Assembly: GCA_006503475.1 (NCBI GenBank)
Contig: RSEH01000065.1
Coordinates: 114,194-178,193 of the forward strand
DNA length: 64,000 nt
Direction of reading: 5' to 3'
Origin: Stentor roeselii
Lineage: Eukaryota > Ciliophora > Heterotrichea > Heterotrichida > Stentoridae
Within the stretch, counting starts at the first letter, position 1. Each line of letters starts with the position of its first letter. Below, one piece after another: positions 26,698-62,989 of this stretch. The notes under the pieces were generated by a model, which was not told where the DNA came from, did not search any database, and was given only the letters and a program-made list of their open reading frames with translations. The translations under genes were made by a program, and so were the position numbers.

Positions 26698-28680
26698 TTA
26701 TACACAACACTTAATCATAATAATTCTATGAGCCAAGTCTACCTCTTCCAATGCCCTTGGCACAAAACAAACAACTTCAGAACCTTTAGGAAACTTCGCA
26801 TAATCCCCTAAATTCTCTACTTTTCCAAGTCCCCAAGCATAAGCTTTCGTATTCCTGCAAATACAAATCGCATGATTTTCTCCACAAACCAAGTCAATAA
26901 CTTTTTCCTTATTAAAAGCTTCAACTTTAGTAGGCAAATAATTTAATTTGACCTTAGGTCCCATCCCTAGCTGCCCTTTGGCACCATTGCCCCAAATAAT
27001 TACTTCTCCATGCAGGCTTATACAAGCTGAAAAAGTTGATCCTGCAGAAACTTTTTGGATTGGAACTGGAATTTCTACTAGTTTTGGTGTAAAAAGCATG
27101 ATATTGGCCTGCAGTTCTGAGGGTCCGAAGCCGAGCTGCCCATCATCGCCCCATCCGGTAGAATAAACATTTCCATTTTCATCTAAAAACAAAGTATGAG
27201 CCTGTCCAGCAGCGAGTGACTTGATTTTGACTCCAGCCAATTCCATGACCGGTAAAGGTGAGCAAGTAAGAAGTCCCAGTTCATCCTGTACCATAAGATT
27301 AGGACTGATTCCAAGTTGTCCAACATCTCCTCTTCCCCAAGCATAGACCTGTCCGCCTTCAGTGAGAGCTGCGGTATGATAAGCTCCACACTCAAGATAA
27401 AGTACGGAGAAGAGTGAATCAACGCATCGAAGCCCTGCACAAGACACGAAATCTCCGTGGCCCAGGACCCCTCCAGCGCCATACCCGATGGTGAGGACCT
27501 TGCCATAGACGCTGAGCATGGCGATGTGCTCCAGTCCACAGCTGATCAGCTCAATTGAGTTCTGCAAAACAGCAGGAATCACAGAACACCCCAACAACTG
27601 CGAGGTCAAATGCTTGTCAGACGGGTAAGGACAGGCACGGGACTTACCTTCTTGATGTGAGTAAAAAATCTGAAGAGCACTCAGATACCCTGACGTTGGA
27701 ATCGCTCTCAGGATTGAAGCGGATTTCACCTCGATTGAAGACTCTCGAGATTGAACCATTTTTCCTTCTCGTGATTCTTGGCAAATTACGATTTTTCGGA
27801 TTATTGGAGAGTTTAAGTCGTTTGATATGAACAGGTTCTCGTCTTTAAATAAAGGGACTGACTTTTTACGGCTAAGACGCTCTTTTGAAGCAGTGTCACT
27901 TAAGAACATGTGGTCCTTTGTAGAGAACTTCGGACCTTCATCAACTAATCCAAGAATTTCATCATCTTCGTCTTTAATCCCTTCAGCTTCTGAAGAGTTT
28001 CTTGGTTTTCGTTCTTCTTCTGCAAGTCGAAAGTCAAGAAAATCTTCAGTCCTTTGATCTTTTCTTTCTTTACCTTCCAGTTCTTTTTGCTCTTCCCAGT
28101 CAATTTTACTGAACTCGACAGTATCTGAGTTAAAAATAACTTCATCTGACTTTATAGAGGAAAGACTCAGTCCTGTGTCAACTGTGGCTTCTTTACGAGA
28201 GTCAAAAGGAATCGTGACAGGAGTTTGAATCCGAGCTTGAGGGATTGACCGAGAAGCGATTCCCTGTTCAGAAATCGACAAATCAGAAACTTCAAACGAT
28301 TCAAAAGAGCTCTGATAAGGGTTCAACTGATAAGGCGGCTTCAAAAGGCCAGAAGTCGGTTCAGGGTTAAAGGCAAGGCTAGATTCAAGAATCACTTCAC
28401 GCAACGATGTACTGTTGCTGAAAGGAGAAGACCTGTGAAGGTTCCAAAGTGTTTGTTTCACGTTGATGTTGTCGGAAATCGTGAAAGAACTGCGAGGAAA
28501 GTTCATTGTTTCACTTTTGGAGCGACTCACAACTGAAAACTTGTACAAAGGATGAAGCTGGAACTGACTGAACTTCTTGCTGTGGTGACGGGACTCCATG
28601 CCGAAGTAGTTGATGGACTTTTTTATCACTAAGGACTGAGAAATCGGACTTGATCGTTCACGTTGGTCTTTGGAAAACAT
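26698..28680 (-). CDS. RCC1-repeat (beta-propeller) protein
   Basis: 660 residues. The first 360 or so are Ser/Glu-rich and probably disordered. Residues about 375-650 hold five RCC1/RLD repeats, each with a G-x-x-H-x-x-x-L strand and a G-x-x-x-x-G-Q-L-G turn (GQVYAWGRGDVGQLGI, GNVYSTGWGDDGQLGF, GEVIIWGNGAKGQLGM). Such propellers act as scaffolds or guanine-exchange factors for Ran-like GTPases. No other catalytic domain is visible, so a function cannot be named. Single frame, TAA stop. Confidence 0.87.
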   Translation of the reverse strand: MFSKDQRERSSPISQSLVIKKSINYFGMESRHHSKKFSQFQLHPLYKFSVVSRSKSETMNFPRSSFTISDNINVKQTLWNLHRSSPFSNSTSLREVILESSLAFNPEPTSGLLKPPYQLNPYQSSFESFEVSDLSISEQGIASRSIPQARIQTPVTIPFDSRKEATVDTGLSLSSIKSDEVIFNSDTVEFSKIDWEEQKELEGKERKDQRTEDFLDFRLAEEERKPRNSSEAEGIKDEDDEILGLVDEGPKFSTKDHMFLSDTASKERLSRKKSVPLFKDENLFISNDLNSPIIRKIVICQESREGKMVQSRESSIEVKSASILRAIPTSGYLSALQIFYSHQEGKSRACPYPSDKHLTSQLLGCSVIPAVLQNSIELISCGLEHIAMLSVYGKVLTIGYGAGGVLGHGDFVSCAGLRCVDSLFSVLYLECGAYHTAALTEGGQVYAWGRGDVGQLGISPNLMVQDELGLLTCSPLPVMELAGVKIKSLAAGQAHTLFLDENGNVYSTGWGDDGQLGFGPSELQANIMLFTPKLVEIPVPIQKVSAGSTFSACISLHGEVIIWGNGAKGQLGMGPKVKLNYLPTKVEAFNKEKVIDLVCGENHAICICRNTKAYAWGLGKVENLGDYAKFPKGSEVVCFVPRALEEVDLAHRIIMIKCCV

Positions 28681-35203: not shown

Positions 35204-37979
35204 ATGTTCCAAAGTAAGGACGTAGCCGATCAAATGGTGATCTTCCTCACTAGTCCGAATGAGGTGGCTCGGAATCAGGCGCATTCTTATTTGCTTAGTT
35301 TTCAGGCCTCTGCTGAAGCCTGGGAAGTCTGTCGACAGTTGATGGTCCCTTCGACGCAGGAGATTCCTTTGTTCTTGTCGAGTCAGATTTTTTATAAGAA
35401 ACTTCAGAGTGACTTCCCGTTTTTGAGTGATGCGCAGAAGGTGGAACTTAAAAGATATATTTTTTCACTTGTCTTGGTTCCTTTTAACTCCAGTCAGGTT
35501 GTTAAGAAGATTTGTCAGAGTGTCGCCATGGTAGGCGTCATGGGACTTGCTTCGTTTTGGGAGGATTTTATTATTGACTTGCTTAGACTGCCGAAAGTTG
35601 AGGTTATGCTTGATATTGTTGATTGTATTCCTTTTTGTCTTGAAGAGTTTATTATTGCGAAAAAAGTGGTTGAACTCATTAAGACTAAACTTAGGGAAAA
35701 TATTGCAAGTATTATGCAGTGCTTGTATTTGGTTATTAAAGAACAGGGATACTTAACCCAAGCCTTACAAGTAATAAAAAACTGGAGAGTGGTTCACATC
35801 CCAGTATTCGATCACACAGGTCTCTTCACGGAACTAATCCAAAACCTATACATGTGCAACGATAACTTCTCCTTAATCTGCGAGGCCTTCACAACAACAG
35901 TATCTCTAAGTTCATACGCCCAGTTATTCCAGCAAAGCAGTGGAAAATGTTCAATATCCTCCTATTCATCAAAAATTCCAAGCGACTATCTACGAAATCT
36001 AGCGACTCTAATTGAGTCCCTTAGCGAGATTCCATTTTTAAACGCACAAGAAGGAGACGTTCAAAGATGGGGAAGTGAACTCGTGATTTCAATAGCAAAC
36101 AACTTCATGTTCCTTCTTCTCGAGCCCATCAGGCTATGGGACGTGATTCAATCAATAACTGGACATCAAAACCTTTCAGTCTGCATGGTCGCCATTGAAT
36201 TTTACTACAACCTTCGAGACATTCTGGTGTCTTTACACGAAATCCCTTCATTTATCTTCGAGAAACTCTTAATGTGCATAAAAAGTCTCGCACTTCGATG
36301 TAAGATCCAAAGTCACGAAATGTTCTTTAAAGTGATTCAACAGAAATCAGAAGATGAAGAAGTGATTTTTACCCAATTTCGAATTTCAGCTGAAGACACT
36401 TTTTACTCGATTTTTTTGATTTTTAACAAACATCATGTTTTGAAAGGAAGAGGACTGATCAAGGAACTTGGAGGACTATTAGATGGAGATGAGTTCAATA
36501 CAGAGATCTTCGTGTTTATGATGAGAAGTCTTCTTCTGGGAATCACTGAGCATGAAGAGACTCAACTTTTATGGGAGGTAAAGAATAATTAGGATACTCG
36601 AAGTGTGCCTTTCTCAGCCACCCCTGCCGATGGTTGTGAAGTCCCTGGTCTTCTTCATGAGCGACATCGGGAACTACTTCATAAAGCTGCCTGGTCTTTT
36701 CCCCAGGTCCTTAGAATACGTTTTGACTCATGGCCTGCTCAATACAAACAACTCTCGCTTTTTCATTGACAGTAACGCAGTTGAGTGCTTACGAAATTTC
36801 TCATTTGAATGCATCGACTTGTTCACAGGGGAAATGATTCAAAAGACCTTAGAAATCTCAGAAAGAGTTTTAAGCTTCATTCATACTGACCAGGCCGAGA
36901 AGTTAATCGAGGCAATCATCTGCATCATTGGAAAACTTTCAGGACTTGAAAGGACTCAAGCTCAGCAGAAGGTTTTTTTGTTTCTTTTAGAAGAACTCAA
37001 CGCTGCTTGCCCGGGTGAGTTAGAAGTCAACCCTGGACTTTTCAATAAGGCGACAAGTTTGATGTCTGCAGCTTTTGGAGCGCTTCACGGCTCTAACAGT
37101 CAAGAGATCTGGAATGATTTAAACTCAGTTATTTTGAAGTCAGTTGAAATCGTGATTAAAGCACTCAGCAGGTTGCAAGACCCGCCGAAGGTCGGTTTGA
37201 CTCTTTTGAAAAGAGCGATTTCACTAAGTTCAACGTTTTCTGACTGTTTTTTCAGTGAAATCTGTGAATTCGTGATGAAAACTTATGTCCCTGGGCGAGA
37301 AGATGCGGTTTCAGTCATTGTTGCAGGTATTTCAGTGCTTTTTAACGAGGGGAAGACCTTGGCTTGGCTTAACAGCAACTACCTGGCTCTTTACCTGAAG
37401 CTTCAAACAAGTCTCATGACAAGTCCGAACCCAGACATCATTGAAAAGTTTTACGATCTTCAATCAAAGCTTTTTGAATGCAACCTTCCAGTCTTTTCCT
37501 CAACTTTATCATCTTCCTTATCCCTTGCCAGCAATTTGGTGACCTTTTTAAGTGACCGGGTGGCAGCGAAGTCACTTTTAACCTTCTGTCAAATGATTTT
37601 TGCTCAAAGGTTCGAGGAACTTGCGGTATTCGTCCATGATCTAAGTAAAAACTTGCTATCTTCCCTGTCCTTAATCAGCATCAACGCAATTCAACCTCTT
37701 TCTTTCTTGCTAGTCAATTTAAAAACAAGTTACTTTCCAGAGTACGAGGCAGGTTTATCAGAAGCTCTATTGTCCAACAGTTACTCTTCATTCAGTGACA
37801 AGGACAAAGAACGTCTTCGTTATTGTTTCTCAATGGTCGACACTTCAAACGTTCACCAAATGAAAGGCCTGGTCAACTCCCTGTCAAATATTCTAAAAGG
37901 CCGAGGAACGATCGACTTGATCATAGCGACTGAAATCGCCATCAACTCGAAGGCAATTAAAGTACAGGTGATCGACTAG
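35204..37979 (+). CDS. TNPO3: Transportin-3/importin-13-type nuclear import receptor
   Basis: Two exons around 36578-36593 give about 919 residues, the size of TNPO3. The N-terminus has the importin-beta-N pattern (MVIFLTSPNEVARNQAHSYL, then FLSSQIFYKKLQSDFP). HEAT repeats follow throughout. The segment after the intron (VCLSQPPLPMVVKSLVFFMS) aligns by pattern with the TNPO3 central repeats. Such receptors carry SR-type and other cargos into the nucleus. Joining the frames requires removing 16 nt, although the sequence offers a perfect 15-nt GT-AG intron, so one base is unexplained. Arp1 starts 10 bp downstream. Confidence 0.83.
36578..36593 (+). other. Tiny intron, 15-nt consensus but frame needs 16 nt
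   Basis: GTAAAGAATAATTAG (36578-36592) has GT, A at position 10 and AG. The two HEAT-repeat frames join only if 16 bases go, which would include the following G at 36593 (or the preceding G at 36577). Either a 16-nt intron with an unusual border or a one-base sequence error. Confidence 0.6.
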
Positions 37980-42882: not shown

Positions 42883-44205
42883 ATGTTTCGACAACTCCTC
42901 AGGCCATTCTCCTCACCAGTCTTCCTCAGAGGTGAGAAAGAGTCGGTTCTGAAAAAGTCGATGCTTCCAAACGGCGTTAAAGTGATCTCAGAGTCAAGCC
43001 GCTTTCCAGGTTCAATCTCTCTAGGCATCGTGGTTCAGGTGGGTATCCGAAACGACCCAGTGGGTTACCTAGACCTTTACAAAGACACATTCCTGCGTTC
43101 GAGGTCACAAGCGGACCAAAAAGCTTATTCAACGCTAGAACTGGCAGGCTGCGACGTGAGTTTGGTCCTCGAACGCGAAAACTTGTACATCCACACGACC
43201 TGCCTGGAAGAGCATCTGGACGTGGTTCTTCCAGCGCTTAAGCAGTCAATTTTCAGTAGCAAGCTGCAGATGGATGTTGCAGACTCACTCCAAAGACTAA
43301 ATATTTTAGAACCTGAGAAAAATGAAGAAAAAATCAAGCACATGATCCTGACAGCAGCCTACGGGGGAAGTACTCTCGGCATAAGACACCCAAGGCTAGA
43401 ACGTATCCCAGTAACCCATTCCGACTACTGCGACTTTATCGACTCTCACTTCACTTCTGAAAAATTAACAATCGCAGCGAGTGGTATCGAAGAACCAAAC
43501 GCTTTCGAGTCAATAGTTTCCAATAACTTCGGAGACATTCCAAAGGGCTCCTTTAAGAACGAGGCGAGTATTTACAAGGCTCAGACACTCAGAGAGACCC
43601 TGACAGACGATACAATGACTCATTACTCCATCGGCTTTCAAGGCGCTGCTTTCACTGACAGTGACATGCCCGCTCTCAATGTTTTAAAGACTATTATCGG
43701 CGATGGGGGCGGCTTCAGCACCGGGGGACCAGGGAAGGGGATGTATTCAAGAGCTTATACTACAATTTTACCTCAAGGCTTCATTGAAAGTGTCAAAACT
43801 CAACATTTATCGTTTAGTGACTCTGGAGTTTTTAGTGTTTCACTTGTTGGACTTGAAAAATATGCTCAGTATTTACCGATTGTTGTTGTTAAGGAATTAA
43901 CTGAATTACTTAAATTGGAACAGCCTGAACTTGATAGAGCGAAAAATATTATTATTAGAGAAGTGCTTATTAATTATCAGAAAACTGTATCGAGGATTGA
44001 GGATATTGCGAAAAATTGTGCAAATTTCTATATGACTCCTGATGAATTTGGATATTTGAAGAAAATTAACCAGGTTAGCTTGAAGGATATCAAAGTTGCT
44101 ATTGTTAGAATGCTTCAAGGGAACTTTTGTGTTTGGACTGCTACTAAAAATACTACAAATTTAACTGAATTGGATGTGATTTACAAGCAACTTGGAACAA
44201 AATAA
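42883..44205 (+). CDS. PMPCA: Mitochondrial processing peptidase alpha subunit
   Basis: 440 residues with an Arg/Ser presequence (MFRQLLRPFSSPV). Two M16-type halves. The zinc-binding HXXEH is absent as expected for the alpha subunit, and the alpha-specific glycine-rich loop GDGGGFSTGGPGKGMYSR is present near residue 280, with FQGAAFTDSDMPALNVLKTI before it. The alpha subunit binds presequences for the catalytic beta subunit in the matrix. The usual H-x-x-E-like helix region is rewritten as YLDLYKDTFLRS. Converges on the importin/H2A fusion gene with 27 bp between stops. Confidence 0.92.
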   Translation: MFRQLLRPFSSPVFLRGEKESVLKKSMLPNGVKVISESSRFPGSISLGIVVQVGIRNDPVGYLDLYKDTFLRSRSQADQKAYSTLELAGCDVSLVLERENLYIHTTCLEEHLDVVLPALKQSIFSSKLQMDVADSLQRLNILEPEKNEEKIKHMILTAAYGGSTLGIRHPRLERIPVTHSDYCDFIDSHFTSEKLTIAASGIEEPNAFESIVSNNFGDIPKGSFKNEASIYKAQTLRETLTDDTMTHYSIGFQGAAFTDSDMPALNVLKTIIGDGGGFSTGGPGKGMYSRAYTTILPQGFIESVKTQHLSFSDSGVFSVSLVGLEKYAQYLPIVVVKELTELLKLEQPELDRAKNIIIREVLINYQKTVSRIEDIAKNCANFYMTPDEFGYLKKINQVSLKDIKVAIVRMLQGNFCVWTATKNTTNLTELDVIYKQLGTK

Positions 44206-44232: not shown

Positions 44233-46167
44233 TTAGATTAGCTGTTGGCAGTTCCCTGATTCAGGAAAAACGACTTGAGTCATAACAACATCCAATTCTG
44301 TATCGTTTCTCACAGCTTGTTGAATATCTTTAGGAGAAATAATTTTCCTTTTATCTTGTTTCACTCTATCTCCTGCTACACAAAGGACTTCAGCACAGAG
44401 ATATTCTAGCATTCCAGCCATATAAACTGCAGCATTTCTTGATACTCGAAGTCGACTTTCTCTCATTTTTCGATGAATTCTTCCAGCAGGAAGCAGAAGC
44501 CCAGACTTGGCCTGTGCACTGACCCTAGTTCTTGACGCCTTTCCTGAAAAAGCAATTTTAGTCTGAATCAAGTTGACTGATTTTCCACTTGTGCTCTGCT
44601 TTTTTGCTTGAGGATGATTTTTCGGTTGTTTTTTATCCTTTTGATTCGAGACCCCTTTCTTCTTCCTATCAGAAACAGGCTGTACCGGTGTTTTCAACAC
44701 AATATTATTTGAAGAGTTTGCAAAGTTCATTTGATTAGCAGGAGGGTTAATAAAAGTTGCAGGTTTTGGATTATTAGCAATCTGTTGAGTAAAATTAGGA
44801 GCAACTTGATTAATAACAGCAGATGGTGCAACTTGATTAACAGCAACTGGTATATTATTACCTCCTGCAACTTGTTTAACAGGTGGATTCAGTAAAACTG
44901 CGACTGGCAAAGGAACTCTAGGGTAGAATTGCATTAGTATCCTCACACAAGTCTGATTCAGTGCCTCTTCTTTACCCACCTGCCCCAAAAGTCTAGAAAA
45001 CCTGCAAGAATCTGCAAAACTTTTAAATATTTCATTGTTGCACTGCAGTAAAGTATCCATTGCTCTTAATGAACTTATGCGGGTCTCGCCTTGGTCTCGC
45101 TCAATGATTCGACAGAGGATACTCACGATGTTGTTTTCAAGAAGTTCAATGATTTGATGCTGAAGTTGCTGGTAAAAGAAATTGTTGATTATTATAATCA
45201 TGTCTAGCTTTATCTTAAGGTCACTTCCTGTTAAAAACTTTACTAGAGTTGGAATGAAGTTTTTGTTGATTAGGTTTTCTAAGAAGTCCCAACCGCAGGT
45301 TGACTGGTGAGTTATTATATCGGAAAATAAGTGCTTTACAGGTTGTTGATGATGATCCAGATATGGTGGCAAAAAAGAAAAAAGCTCTTTAAAAACATTC
45401 TCCATTCCTTCAAAATTCCTAATTTTCCCTAAAACAAAAACACAATCTTCAAACAAATCCCTATCAGAAAGTCTTAAAACCACAGCAAACCCAAGCCTAT
45501 TATTCATACCTTCTTTAAAATTTTCAGGATTCTGCCACAACTCAAGTCCTTTTTTCAAAAACAGAAAAGAATAAGCCACCAAATCTTTTTCAATTCCTTT
45601 TTCCAAGATGCCTCCAAGTTGTTCAACAACTTTCTTAAAGTCCTTCAAAGGCAAATAATTAAAGATCCCAACAAGAATTTCCATGATATAAGCCATGGCG
45701 ACTTCATCAACATGCAATTCAAGAAACTCTAAAAAATATTCAAAAAGTCGACAATATTCATCAACCAAGGCCTTTTCATAAGCAATGCTAAGAAACCTGT
45801 AGACTTCTGCCCTCATTTGAACAAAGCGTGACCGAAGAAAGTCAGGTAAAAGTCCTTCAAGTTCTTTAAAGACCTTCACCCGACTACATTCAAGAGGAAA
45901 CTTGAGACACAAGTGACTAAGTCCCTGAATGCATTCAAATACCACCTGGTCTTCTTTTTCTTTAACAAGATCTAAGAAATATCTGCAAATTTTAACAGGT
46001 TCTGAACAATTCTGACGAACTTTCCTGTTAAGTACAACAGCGAGTTCCAGGGTGTTAGTCCTTGACTTGTAAAGCTTTTGAATTCTTTCGATCTAATTAG
46101 AAGTTACTGAGTATTCTTCAAGGAAAAGGTTTCGGGTGTCTGGAAAGCGAAGATCGACTTGCAACAT
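44233..46167 (-). CDS. Importin-alpha-like ARM-repeat protein fused to a histone H2A fold
   Basis: Exons 46167-46108 and 46092-44233 joined by a 15-nt intron give 639 residues in one frame. N-terminal residues about 20-50 are basic, reminiscent of an importin-beta-binding segment. ARM-like repeats span about 55-415; IPTLVKFLTGSDLKIKLDMI and QIIELLENNIVSILCRII match the pattern of the last importin-alpha repeats. A Pro/Asn/Gln-rich then Lys-rich linker (about 416-540) leads to a 99-residue H2A domain: SGLLLPAGRIHRKMRE, AAVYMAGMLEYLCAEVL, KIISPKDIQQAVRNDTEL. Against canonical H2A it has a 2-residue deletion in loop L1, and acidic-patch positions Glu64 and Glu91 changed to Cys and Thr. Domain calls are firm for H2A, moderate for importin-alpha. 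Confidence 0.85.
46093..46107 (-). other. 15-nt intron
   Basis: Minus strand GTAACTTCTAATTAG, with A at position 10 and terminal in-frame TAG. Removal links the ATG exon (LFLEEYS) to IERIQKLYKSR. Confidence 0.9.
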
Positions 46168-50052: not shown

Positions 50053-50454
50053 ATGTCAGGAAAAGGAAAAGGAACAAGAGGCAAGGCAGCGAACGTCACA
50101 AAGACTTCCAGATCTCAAAAGGCTGGACTTCAATTCCCAGTAGGAAGAATTTCCAGATTCATGAAACAAGGAAGATATGCTGAAAGAATTGGAGCAGGAG
50201 CGCCTGTATATTTAGCTGCAGTTTTAGAGTATTTAGCTGCTGAAGTACTGGAACTTGCTGGAAATGCCGCCAAAGACTATAAAAAAACCAGAATTGTCCC
50301 AAGGCACATTCAACTCGCTGTTAGAAATGATGAAGAATTGAATAAACTTCTTTCAAATACAACCATTGCCAGTGCTGGAGTCACTCCTTTCATTCATGGA
50401 GCTTTATTGCCGGACGGTGTCAAGGAGAAAGACGGAGAAACTCAGGATATTTAA
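50053..50454 (+). CDS. H2A: Histone H2A
   Basis: 133 residues. The canonical fold is intact: [39 protein letters not shown] and [18 protein letters not shown], with all acidic-patch residues. The N-tail is [13 protein letters not shown]-like, and the C-tail extends past the usual PALLP to an acidic end, without an SQ[E/D] motif of H2A.X. Intronless. It provides a direct comparison for the divergent H2A domain fused to the ARM repeats 4 kb away. Confidence 0.98.
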
Positions 50455-56550: not shown

Positions 56551-57864
56551 ATGGACACCTCTCCATCAATCCGAAAGCAGTTCCTGACAAAGATCTACAA
56601 ACGATCAGCAGAAAAGTCTCAAGACTCCAGTTTTTTCGAAGAAACAAACGCCGGCAACGTGAATTCCTCATTTTCCAGCCAAAAGTCAGAGACCGGTCAA
56701 AGCTGGACATCTTCTCCATCACGAGAAAAGCGTTCAGGGACTCCAGGGGTGCGAAGAAGAGACTCTCCAGGCAAAGAGTCGATGACAGTTTTTGTCACTT
56801 TCTTAACTGAGCTGTTGAACAGTCAGGGAAGAATAACTGAAGACCTTCTGAAAGAAGTATACCCAGTGACTAAAGCTTTAAACGACAACTTTGCAAAGAA
56901 TCCTGAGTTTTCGCTTCAGTTTTACATCAGCATGAGCGAAATTTTAAACGCTTTGAACGATTTGGACACCCTGAACTTTTCTGAGTTTCAGTCAAAAGTA
57001 GAAGAAGCATTAAGCTTAACAAATGACGGGATCACTGAGATTGAGCAGTTGACAAGTTTAAAGAAGCATATTTCGAAGATAAACTTAAGAGTCATAGCAG
57101 TAAAAAATATTTAGACATTGAAACGTTTCTTGACGAATAAAGAAGAAATCCAGAACTTGTCACATTCTTTTCTCGTGTTTTTCTCACAGGCGGATAAAGA
57201 CATTGAAGTAAGTCCAAATAAAAAAATCCCTGCGACAAGTGTTTTAAGCGTCATGCAGAAGTACACCTTGATGCCTGGGAAGATGATTCAAACCTGTCGT
57301 AAAGTCATCGAATTCATCCACAAAAAAATGATTCCAAGCCACTCAACAAGATCAGCTCAGGAAATCCTCAACAAGGTAAACCAACAAAATTTGATGGAAA
57401 TCGATAGAAGTGGCGGACTTCTTATTTTTTACGATTTCTTAAAAGCTTGTTTTGCTTACTTCCAGGCTTATTCCCAACAAGGCACTCGCCGTAGTTTTTC
57501 TCCTAATGCAAGTCTTCCTGAGTCGAAAATCGTTGAAGTTGAAGAAGAAGAAATCCCTGAACCTCGAGAGACTCCAGTCAAGTTAAAGCTTAGACCAGTT
57601 TATGAAGCGAAAGTCTTGGAAAGGACTCAATCAACCCACTCAGTGACCACAAAAGAAGAATTTGATCAAATAATTGAAGAAAGGTTTAAAAAGTTTTTAA
57701 GAAGCTCGAAACTTTCAGGTCTTGAAAAACTTGAGAACAGACTTGCTGTCATTGACGACTTCGAAAAAGAAATCCGCTGGGAAATAAGAGAAGCATTTTT
57801 AGACACCTTCCAAAGTGAGGCATGTCTGCGGCAAGAACTCGAAAAGTCTAGACTTACGTTTTAA
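56551..57864 (+). CDS. Hypothetical ciliate protein
   Basis: Exons 56551-57099 and 57115-57864 joined by a 15-nt intron give 432 residues. Ser-rich disordered head (residues 1-75), a helical domain (76-300), an acidic linker (EVEEEEIPEPRE near 318), and a helical C-terminus. No family recognised. The intron ends in an in-frame TAG, so the unspliced message would stop at residue 187. PSMD5-like gene follows after 11 bp. Confidence 0.75.
57100..57114 (+). other. 15-nt intron
   Basis: GTAAAAAATATTTAG, with A at position 10. Removal joins LRVIA to TLKRFLTNKEEIQ in frame. Confidence 0.9.
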
Positions 57865-60926: not shown

Positions 60927-62989
60927 TTATACATTAATTAGTCTATATTTGTCAAGCTTTAACCTCGCAATAGCTTCCTTTTTACACAGTAACAAGACAT
61001 CATTTTTCAAAACCCTCAATTTCACTTTGATTTCATTGAGTTTATTATTCGACTTAAACTCACTATTTTTCGCATCAAGCTGCAAGTTAAAAGCCTCCAG
61101 ATTATTTTCAATTTTTTCATACTCATCACATAAAAGCTGAACCCTTTTCCTCTTCTCATTCAATCTCTTAAAAGTACTGACCCGTTTTTCAGCAACTTTC
61201 CTAAGTTCAACAAAACTTTCTTCACAAAGAACCTGAATTTTTTTTTCAGCATTAGAAATCTTTTCAAGCTCTTTTCTAATATTTTCCGTTTTTTTCTCTA
61301 AAACACCCACACAATTAGAATCATTTAAAAAACAATTCAATGCTTTTTGAGTATTTTTAAATAAAACAAGTTTTTCCTGTATTCCATTATCAAAGTCAAT
61401 TTCAAGAACAAGTTTCGAAGCAACCCTTCTCGCTTCAGCCATCCACTCAAGAGGGTCAACAGAACTTTCAATGATTCCTTCTCTTTTTTCCTCATCTTTT
61501 TCCACAAAGACAAGATCAGAGGCTCCAGTAGAGCTTGATTTAGGAAGATTTTCATAGTCCTCATAAGGTGCCTCATCTTGTAAGTCTTTCCAGATCATTT
61601 CATCAGGCATGTCGAAGTCGACTTCTTCGATGACATCAGGAGAAAGTCCTTCAGCCCTGTACAAGTTTGCACCTCCTTCATTGACGACGGGCATTTGGAA
61701 CTTGTAGTCCTGTCGGACGAGTTCCCTGTTGAGCAAGTCGTTGATGATGACGCAGACGCCTTCTCCATGGCCAGGTTTGATAGTGATGGGCGTGATGGTC
61801 TCAGCAGCTTTGATGCCGAAGTTTTTGACATCCGCAAGAATATGTTTCGCGATTTCCTCAGCGTCGCCCAGATGAGACGACGACACAAAAGGCGTGAAAG
61901 GCCGAAGTCCTGGAGATTTCTGCTTGTTCAGTGACATGAGCCAATAGACCAAGTCATAAAAATAACAGAGTTGCTCTTGTGGGTTGATGTGATGAGAGAA
62001 GTAAACTCGTGACACCGGCGGGTGCTTGTAAATCTTGCAGAAAAGGTTTTCATAGTCAAGTAGTTTCAGCTTTTCTTGGATGTCGTCCATGACGAGGCTG
62101 ATGTCCACTTTCGGCTTTTTGTTTGACCAGGACTTCAGCTGGATGTTGCAAAGTTCGACGACTTGGTCGATGTCGAGTCTTTTCTCTGGGTTGACTTGAA
62201 TCATTGAGTTGACGATCGTTCGAAGTTCTTCTGAATACCTCTCGCCTACAGGCACGAACTCGCCTTTGCTGATCGTTTGGAATAAGTCGTAAAGACTCAT
62301 CTTCGTGTCGTCTTTGCGGAATGGAGAGTGAAGGCAGGCTAGCTCGTAAACCACGCAGCCTAAGCTCCAAACGTCACTTTTCCAGTCGTACCCGCTACCT
62401 TTTAGAACTTCAGGACTCATGTACAGAGGAGTCCCTACTCTTGAAAAGGCCTCGATTGTCTGGCTTGATAAGAAACGACCTAGGCCTAGGTCACCCAGTT
62501 TCAAAGTACCGTCAGCGGTTATAAAGATGTTAGCTGGTTTAAGGTCACGGTGCATGATGCGCTTTTCTTGCATGTGTTTCAAAGCAGAGGCGATTTGATG
62601 CATATACTCCCAGACCTTGAGCTCTTCAATGGGCAGTTCTTCAGCCTGTGCTCTTTTGATCACTCTCTTGAGGTCTCCCTTTTCAGCCCATTCAATCGCG
62701 ATGAGAAGTTCGTTTTCTTCAATGAACGAGTCGAGGTAGTTAATGATGTTCGGGTGCTTCAGCGACTGAAGAAGTGAAACTTCTTTCAGGCACTTTTCGC
62801 GTTGCTTCGGGTCCATCATATCGAAAATCTGATTAGATTTACCTTTATTATCTTCATTGCTACTGGCAGGTTGTCTGAAACGCGCTCTGCCTTGTAAACT
62901 ATTGAAAATTTCCCTTGACCGATTGGCTTCAGGATTCGGTAGCCTTTGATTTCTTTTCCTGTCTTGCTTGACTCTTCGGATTTATTCAT
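60927..62989 (-). CDS. NEK6/7-type kinase fused to IFT57
   Basis: Exons 62989-62843 and 62828-60927 joined by a 14-nt intron give 682 residues. Kinase domain residues 17-275: glycine loop IGQGKFSIVY, Lys46 in VAMK, HRDLKPAN, DLG as in NEK6/7 (GDLGLGRF) and VGTPLYMSPE. Residues about 295-682 match IFT57: MDDIQEKLKLLDYENLF, SRVYFSHHINPQEQLCYFY, GHGEGVCVIINDLL, an acidic stretch, SVDPLEWMAEARRV and a long C-terminal coiled coil. IFT57 is a core IFT-B peripheral subunit. The frame is continuous across the roughly 20-residue junction. NEKs regulate cilia, so the fusion would tether a kinase to IFT trains. Confidence 0.9.
62829..62842 (-). other. 14-nt intron
   Basis: Minus strand GTAAATCTAATCAG. 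Removal joins VAMKIIK to IFDMMDPK, matching the NEK7 VQIFDLMD block; only 14 nt keeps the frame. Confidence 0.85.

Follow-up and report, generated by a model that had tools for sequence, protein, structure and literature searches.

Within the 64,000-nucleotide stretch of the Stentor roeselii genome analyzed here (the window), a single gene on the minus strand (46167-44233) appears to join an armadillo (ARM) scaffold, via a flexible linker, to a histone fold resembling that of the short H2A variants. In the reading we favor, with a probability of roughly 45%, this fold pairs with H2B and anchors the ARM part to chromatin or to free H2B. After removal of a putative 15-nt intron, the gene encodes 639 amino acids, comprising a helical N-terminal region (residues ∼1-418), which is followed by a linker that becomes basic along its length and by the C-terminal H2A domain.

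The ATG at 46167 starts 20 open codons (exon 1, residues 1-20; 46108-46167), which are followed by an in-frame TAG. This TAG is the 3′ end of GTAACTTCTAATTAG (46107-46093), an element of 15 nt and a putative phase 0 intron proposed because its removal repairs the frame and its length is typical of heterotrichs. Exon 2 (residues 21-639 plus the TAA stop codon at 44233; 44233-46092, minus strand) is open without any splicing. Thus, the “one continuous frame” of the original prediction does not hold before splicing, where the TAG intervenes; it holds after splicing, and literally so for 46092-44233. Introns of heterotrich ciliates are typically 15-16 bp long (PMC9942806, PMC10946202). In a survey of the window for GT..AG elements of 10-39 nt that, once removed, bring two broken frames together, the commonest length was 15 nt (n = 17), followed by 24 nt (n = 13), all other lengths being found 0-10 times. 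Five of the 17 elements of 15 nt have the form GTA...TAG, and at least one of these five, a candidate at 43373 lying antisense to another gene, looks like chance. Further putative frame-mending GTA...TAG introns of 15-16 nt were observed at 36578-36592 (plus strand), 57100-57114 (plus), 21285-21271 (minus), and 7301-7286 (minus), as expected of a heterotrich.

Judged from sequence comparisons, the C-terminal domain (about residues 541-629; 44266-44532, minus strand) is a genuine H2A, and a divergent one, just as had been predicted. The Pfam Histone model matched it with an E-value of 5.8e-10; a sequence search of the PDB yielded 218 matches at E up to 10, with an H2A on top (E = 1e-19), and each of the best 60 of these 218 was either an H2A or a chain that contains one. 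A profile built from nine H2A sequences gave the fused domain 88.7 bits, human H2A.B 88.6 bits, and seven other histone-fold proteins at most 17.0 bits; the nine references reached 181-225 bits, being members of their own profile. These scores rule out NF-YC, DRAP1, or an archaeal histone as the identity of the fold. Compared pairwise, the domain scored 60-74 bits with the nine reference H2As, 33.6 bits with H2A.B, 15.2 bits with HMfB, and at most 11.0 bits with NF-YC, NF-YB, and DRAP1.

Alignment to human H2A confirmed the changes originally proposed, that is, a two-residue deletion in loop L1 (residues 40-41) and the replacement of E64 by cysteine and of E91 by threonine. Two further losses had not been predicted, as had neither the failure to find import-receptor parts nor the nearby canonical H2A gene (see below): R77 is replaced by isoleucine and the docking segment is missing. 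The last position of human H2A to be aligned is 112, no Pfam match to Histone_H2A_C was obtained for the fusion protein at E up to 1, and a short C-terminal tail (44236-44265, minus strand) stands in place of the docking segment. The acidic patch (E56, E61, E64, D90, E91, and E92) is retained at four of six positions; of the DNA-contact positions, R29, R32, R35, R42, and K74 are also retained and K75 is changed to arginine. A hydrophobic residue (counting A and C as such) was found at 20 of the 21 positions that are large and hydrophobic in all nine reference H2As, versus only 8 of their 14 invariant polar positions being kept, which suggests that the pairing core has been retained while the surfaces have been altered. 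Conservation of this core, together with the loss of the docking segment and the changes in R77, in L1, and in some acidic-patch residues, argues for a domain that still meets H2B but would form weak nucleosomes or none at all. What the loss of the docking end and of the acidic patch entails is illustrated by the short H2A variants, which lack the last part of the docking segment and in which loss of the segment destabilizes nucleosomes (PMC7226823).

The favored reading, an ARM scaffold anchored through its own H2A fold, would work as follows. The scaffold, derived from or related to importin-α, would have lost its import parts; pairing of the H2A fold with H2B would anchor the ARM solenoid either to free H2B or within chromatin, in nucleosomes that are unstable and unwrapped in part, and the anchored solenoid would then recruit a partner. 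We infer the existence of one message, the pairing with H2B, the tethering to chromatin, and a partner for the ARM groove. It is conceivable, if unlikely, that the protein represents a new class of tethered H2A variant, in which a former importin ARM scaffold sits in or on chromatin by virtue of its own H2A fold, opens nucleosomes locally in one of the two nuclei of the ciliate, and recruits its partner there.

The same genome also contains a separate, free-standing canonical H2A gene, 4 kb from the fusion gene (50053-50454, plus strand). Its product of 133 amino acids is an ordinary H2A with a complete C-terminus (Pfam Histone 1.1e-13, Histone_H2A_C 4.5e-11), sharing 71 of 80 core residues with Tetrahymena H2A. 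The fused domain is identical to this canonical H2A at 44 of 100 aligned residues (37 of 78 in the core), to the core of human H2A.Z at 37 of 77, and to H2A.B at 24 of 78. In an H2A tree with one of eight inner branches starred, the fused H2A was placed on a very long branch, which does not indicate its parent H2A class.

The N-terminal part is highly diverged. It is covered by an armadillo-like helical region of putative importin-α type, as derived from sequence, profile, and fold searches (exon-2 part, residues 21-418; 44899-46092, minus strand). With an E-value limit of 10, a phmmer search of the PDB with residues 1-439 returned 47 sequences, comprising 46 that were importin-α or chains containing it and one engineered protein. 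At 0.015, the best E-value exceeded the threshold normally applied, and the match to importin-α covers about 90-107 residues, that is, approximately two repeats; the matching stretch (residues 285-375; 45028-45300, minus strand) corresponds in register to roughly ARM 7-8 of importin-α. In a single comparison with a two-sequence importin profile, hhalign gave a probability of 87.8 (E = 3.3e-6) over 107 columns. The same profile, used with hmmsearch, scored the N-terminal region at 20.2 bits, versus 3.3 for the best of 200 shuffles, −2.9 for the reversed sequence, and −0.4 for the best score reported for other proteins of the window. As β-catenin reached 44.1 bits on this profile, the profile alone detects ARM proteins generally and cannot single out importin; a β-catenin query, however, scored the N-terminal region at −1.9 bits, so the region leans towards importin. 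Pfam matches to Arm (15.3 bits; cut-off 20.6), to Dopey_N (17.9 bits; cut-off 26.4), and to further families all fell below their cut-offs.

Two single-sequence AlphaFold models represented the region as helical throughout, with low mean pLDDT (44.5 and 49.8). With both of these low-confidence models, Foldseek ranked importin-α at the top: for one model, 7 of the 11 matches at E up to 0.001 were importin-α and the other four designed repeat proteins; for the other model, the first 12 matches were importin-α, of which a single one satisfied this E-value limit. The TM-scores of the importin matches listed did not exceed 0.36, and a PP2A scaffold further down one list had a TM-score of 0.44. Given these values and the low pLDDT, the fold matches are suggestive but no proof of the fold. 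Taken together, searches and models point, weakly, to importin-α as the nearest relative of this highly divergent ARM region, and it is only in this sense that the label “importin-α-like” is supported.

Parts that would make the protein an import receptor were not found. The fusion protein gave no Pfam match to the importin-β-binding (IBB) domain at E up to 1, with the same library detecting the IBB domain (1.3e-28) and Arm (5.5e-93) of yeast Srp1 as a positive control, and it contains none of the WxxxN motifs of the cargo groove, of which the ARM part of Srp1 has five. A classical import receptor is therefore unlikely, and a classical NLS receptor was rejected as the leading idea; the receptor of the original prediction is not supported, and its autoinhibited or cargo-mimicking versions are left with little footing. 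The linker is basic in part only: between the helical region and the H2A fold (residues 411-540; 44533-44922, minus strand) it is of low complexity, first rich in NQVAP, Asn, and Pro (net charge +2 for residues 426-480) and then basic (+12 for 480-540), so that the term “basic linker” fits its second half and not its first. Basic clusters of the form RKKK...KDKK...AKK (residues 496-518; 44599-44667, minus strand) may serve as an NLS or contact DNA.

Some of these features would also suit a chaperone or import adaptor for H2B, in which the fused H2A catches newly made H2B in the cytoplasm while ARM region and basic linker carry the pair into one type of nucleus. The retained H2A core and the basic clusters of the linker are consistent with such a role, and nucleus-specific importins and the import of linker histone are documented for ciliates (PMC5450191). 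Yet with neither an IBB domain nor a WxxxN groove detected, we consider it unlikely. Rather improbable is a non-nucleosomal scaffold, that is, an H2A-like fold that has drifted to a role like that of NF-YC, as part of a complex for DNA binding or transcription. The fused fold does exceed the canonical H2A of the window on the CBFD_NFYB_HMF model (37.6 versus 28.6 bits), which makes a non-nucleosomal role possible, and on the archaeal-histone model (22.2 versus 18.5 bits, both below the cut-off of 50); moreover, PKDI replaces PRHI where the last helix of the histone fold begins, and the docking segment is gone. Against this stands the clear H2A identity apparent from the pairwise scores given above.

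The 141 linker codons at residues 411-551 are free of stops, an outcome seen in 5 of 20,000 sequences from a first-order simulation, and the five alternative frames over this stretch are closed by 4, 17, 5, 8, and 15 stops, respectively; the linker, where the original prediction had suggested looking for a stop codon, thus contains none in frame. The codon score of the fusion frame was positive in all ten scoring windows of 180 nt (covering 1800 of 1920 nt), whereas the other two frames of the minus strand were negative in 10 of 10 each; the underlying codon table was derived from 40 ORFs that include the fusion ORF minus its first part, which entails mild circularity. The gene model, linker included, is open and coding, which supports the single-gene architecture originally claimed.

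The fusion gene fills the gap between its neighbors, an M16-peptidase-like gene 27 bp away and a gene for a signal-peptidase subunit 40 bp away. Such intergenic gaps of tens of bases would accommodate a recent or neutral fusion, in which a gene for an ARM protein merged with one for a histone variant in a compact genome and the joint protein is decaying or of little function; the long branch of the fused H2A and a second joined ORF within the window, protein kinase plus IFT57, are in line with this. As exon 2 is open for 619 codons, carries coding signal throughout, and has retained the hydrophobic core, such an origin is very unlikely. Least probable of all are two messages, or an assembly join, instead of one protein: Met 475, the last before the H2A core, could begin a separate long-tailed histone, but the linker is stop-free with the other frames closed, both sides share strand and coding signal, and the candidate 15-nt elements listed for ARM part and linker leave the frame unshifted.

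In the 40 ORFs chosen from 51 (11 being dropped because they overlapped, were nested, or had no ATG start), the stop codon is TAA in 22, TAG in 16, and TGA in 2 cases. TGA as a tryptophan codon (the Blepharisma code) was rejected: table 4 barely alters the main ORFs, which, together with TGA ending 2 of 40 of them, makes the standard code likelier without proving it. The joined ORF mentioned above (60927-62819, minus strand) encodes a protein kinase domain (residues 4-222), presumably resembling NEK6/7, and IFT57 (residues 244-608) in a single open frame, with no GT..AG element of 14-16 nt near the junction; the incomplete N-lobe of the kinase makes another exon upstream of 62819 probable. Another ORF (26698-28680, minus strand) encodes an RCC1-repeat protein (WD40_RLD, E = 9.2e-65).

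No fusion of H2A with importin or ARM repeats was found in the literature (titles and opening parts of abstracts), nor was H2A joined to ARM repeats among the best 60 of the 218 PDB matches; in the available part of a survey of algal H2A variants, the terms “importin,” “fused,” and “N-terminal extension” do not occur. Short exact peptide matching yielded one pattern match for the ARM part and 16 for the H2A part in viral contigs, and 28 for exon 2 in contigs of prokaryotic genomes, none of them confirmed, and these collections, containing no eukaryotes, have little bearing on heterotrichs. If an H2A has indeed been combined with a degenerate importin-type scaffold, this would be a new way of tethering a protein to chromatin or of handling H2B, in a cell that has to send histones to two different nuclei.

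Among the nearest parallels are fused histones such as the H2B-H2A chains of the PDB (for example, 7dlx and 7wlp), which likewise place a histone fold within a longer chain but are engineered and join two histones. With importin-α, the fusion protein shares an all-helical region of similar length, with the best-matching stretch at about the same position in the chain; it differs in the lack of a detectable IBB domain and of WxxxN motifs and in being alignable over approximately two repeats only. To our knowledge, core histones rarely bear large extra modules, the well-known case for H2A being macroH2A, the docking segment of which is complete. There, as here, an H2A fold and a large non-histone module are joined by a basic linker; in the fusion protein, however, the module is N-terminal and ARM-like, and none of the seven matches that Pfam gave for the protein (E up to 1) is a macro domain, whereas the macro domain of macroH2A is C-terminal (PMC12459048). 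A cut-down docking segment, a changed acidic patch, and high divergence are features that the fused domain shares with the short H2A variants H2A.B, H2A.L, and H2A.P. These variants occur in placental mammals as free histones, whereas the fusion protein carries ∼540 residues N-terminal of the fold and has kept four of the six acidic-patch residues; the low identity to H2A.B suggests that the likeness to the short H2As arose by convergence.
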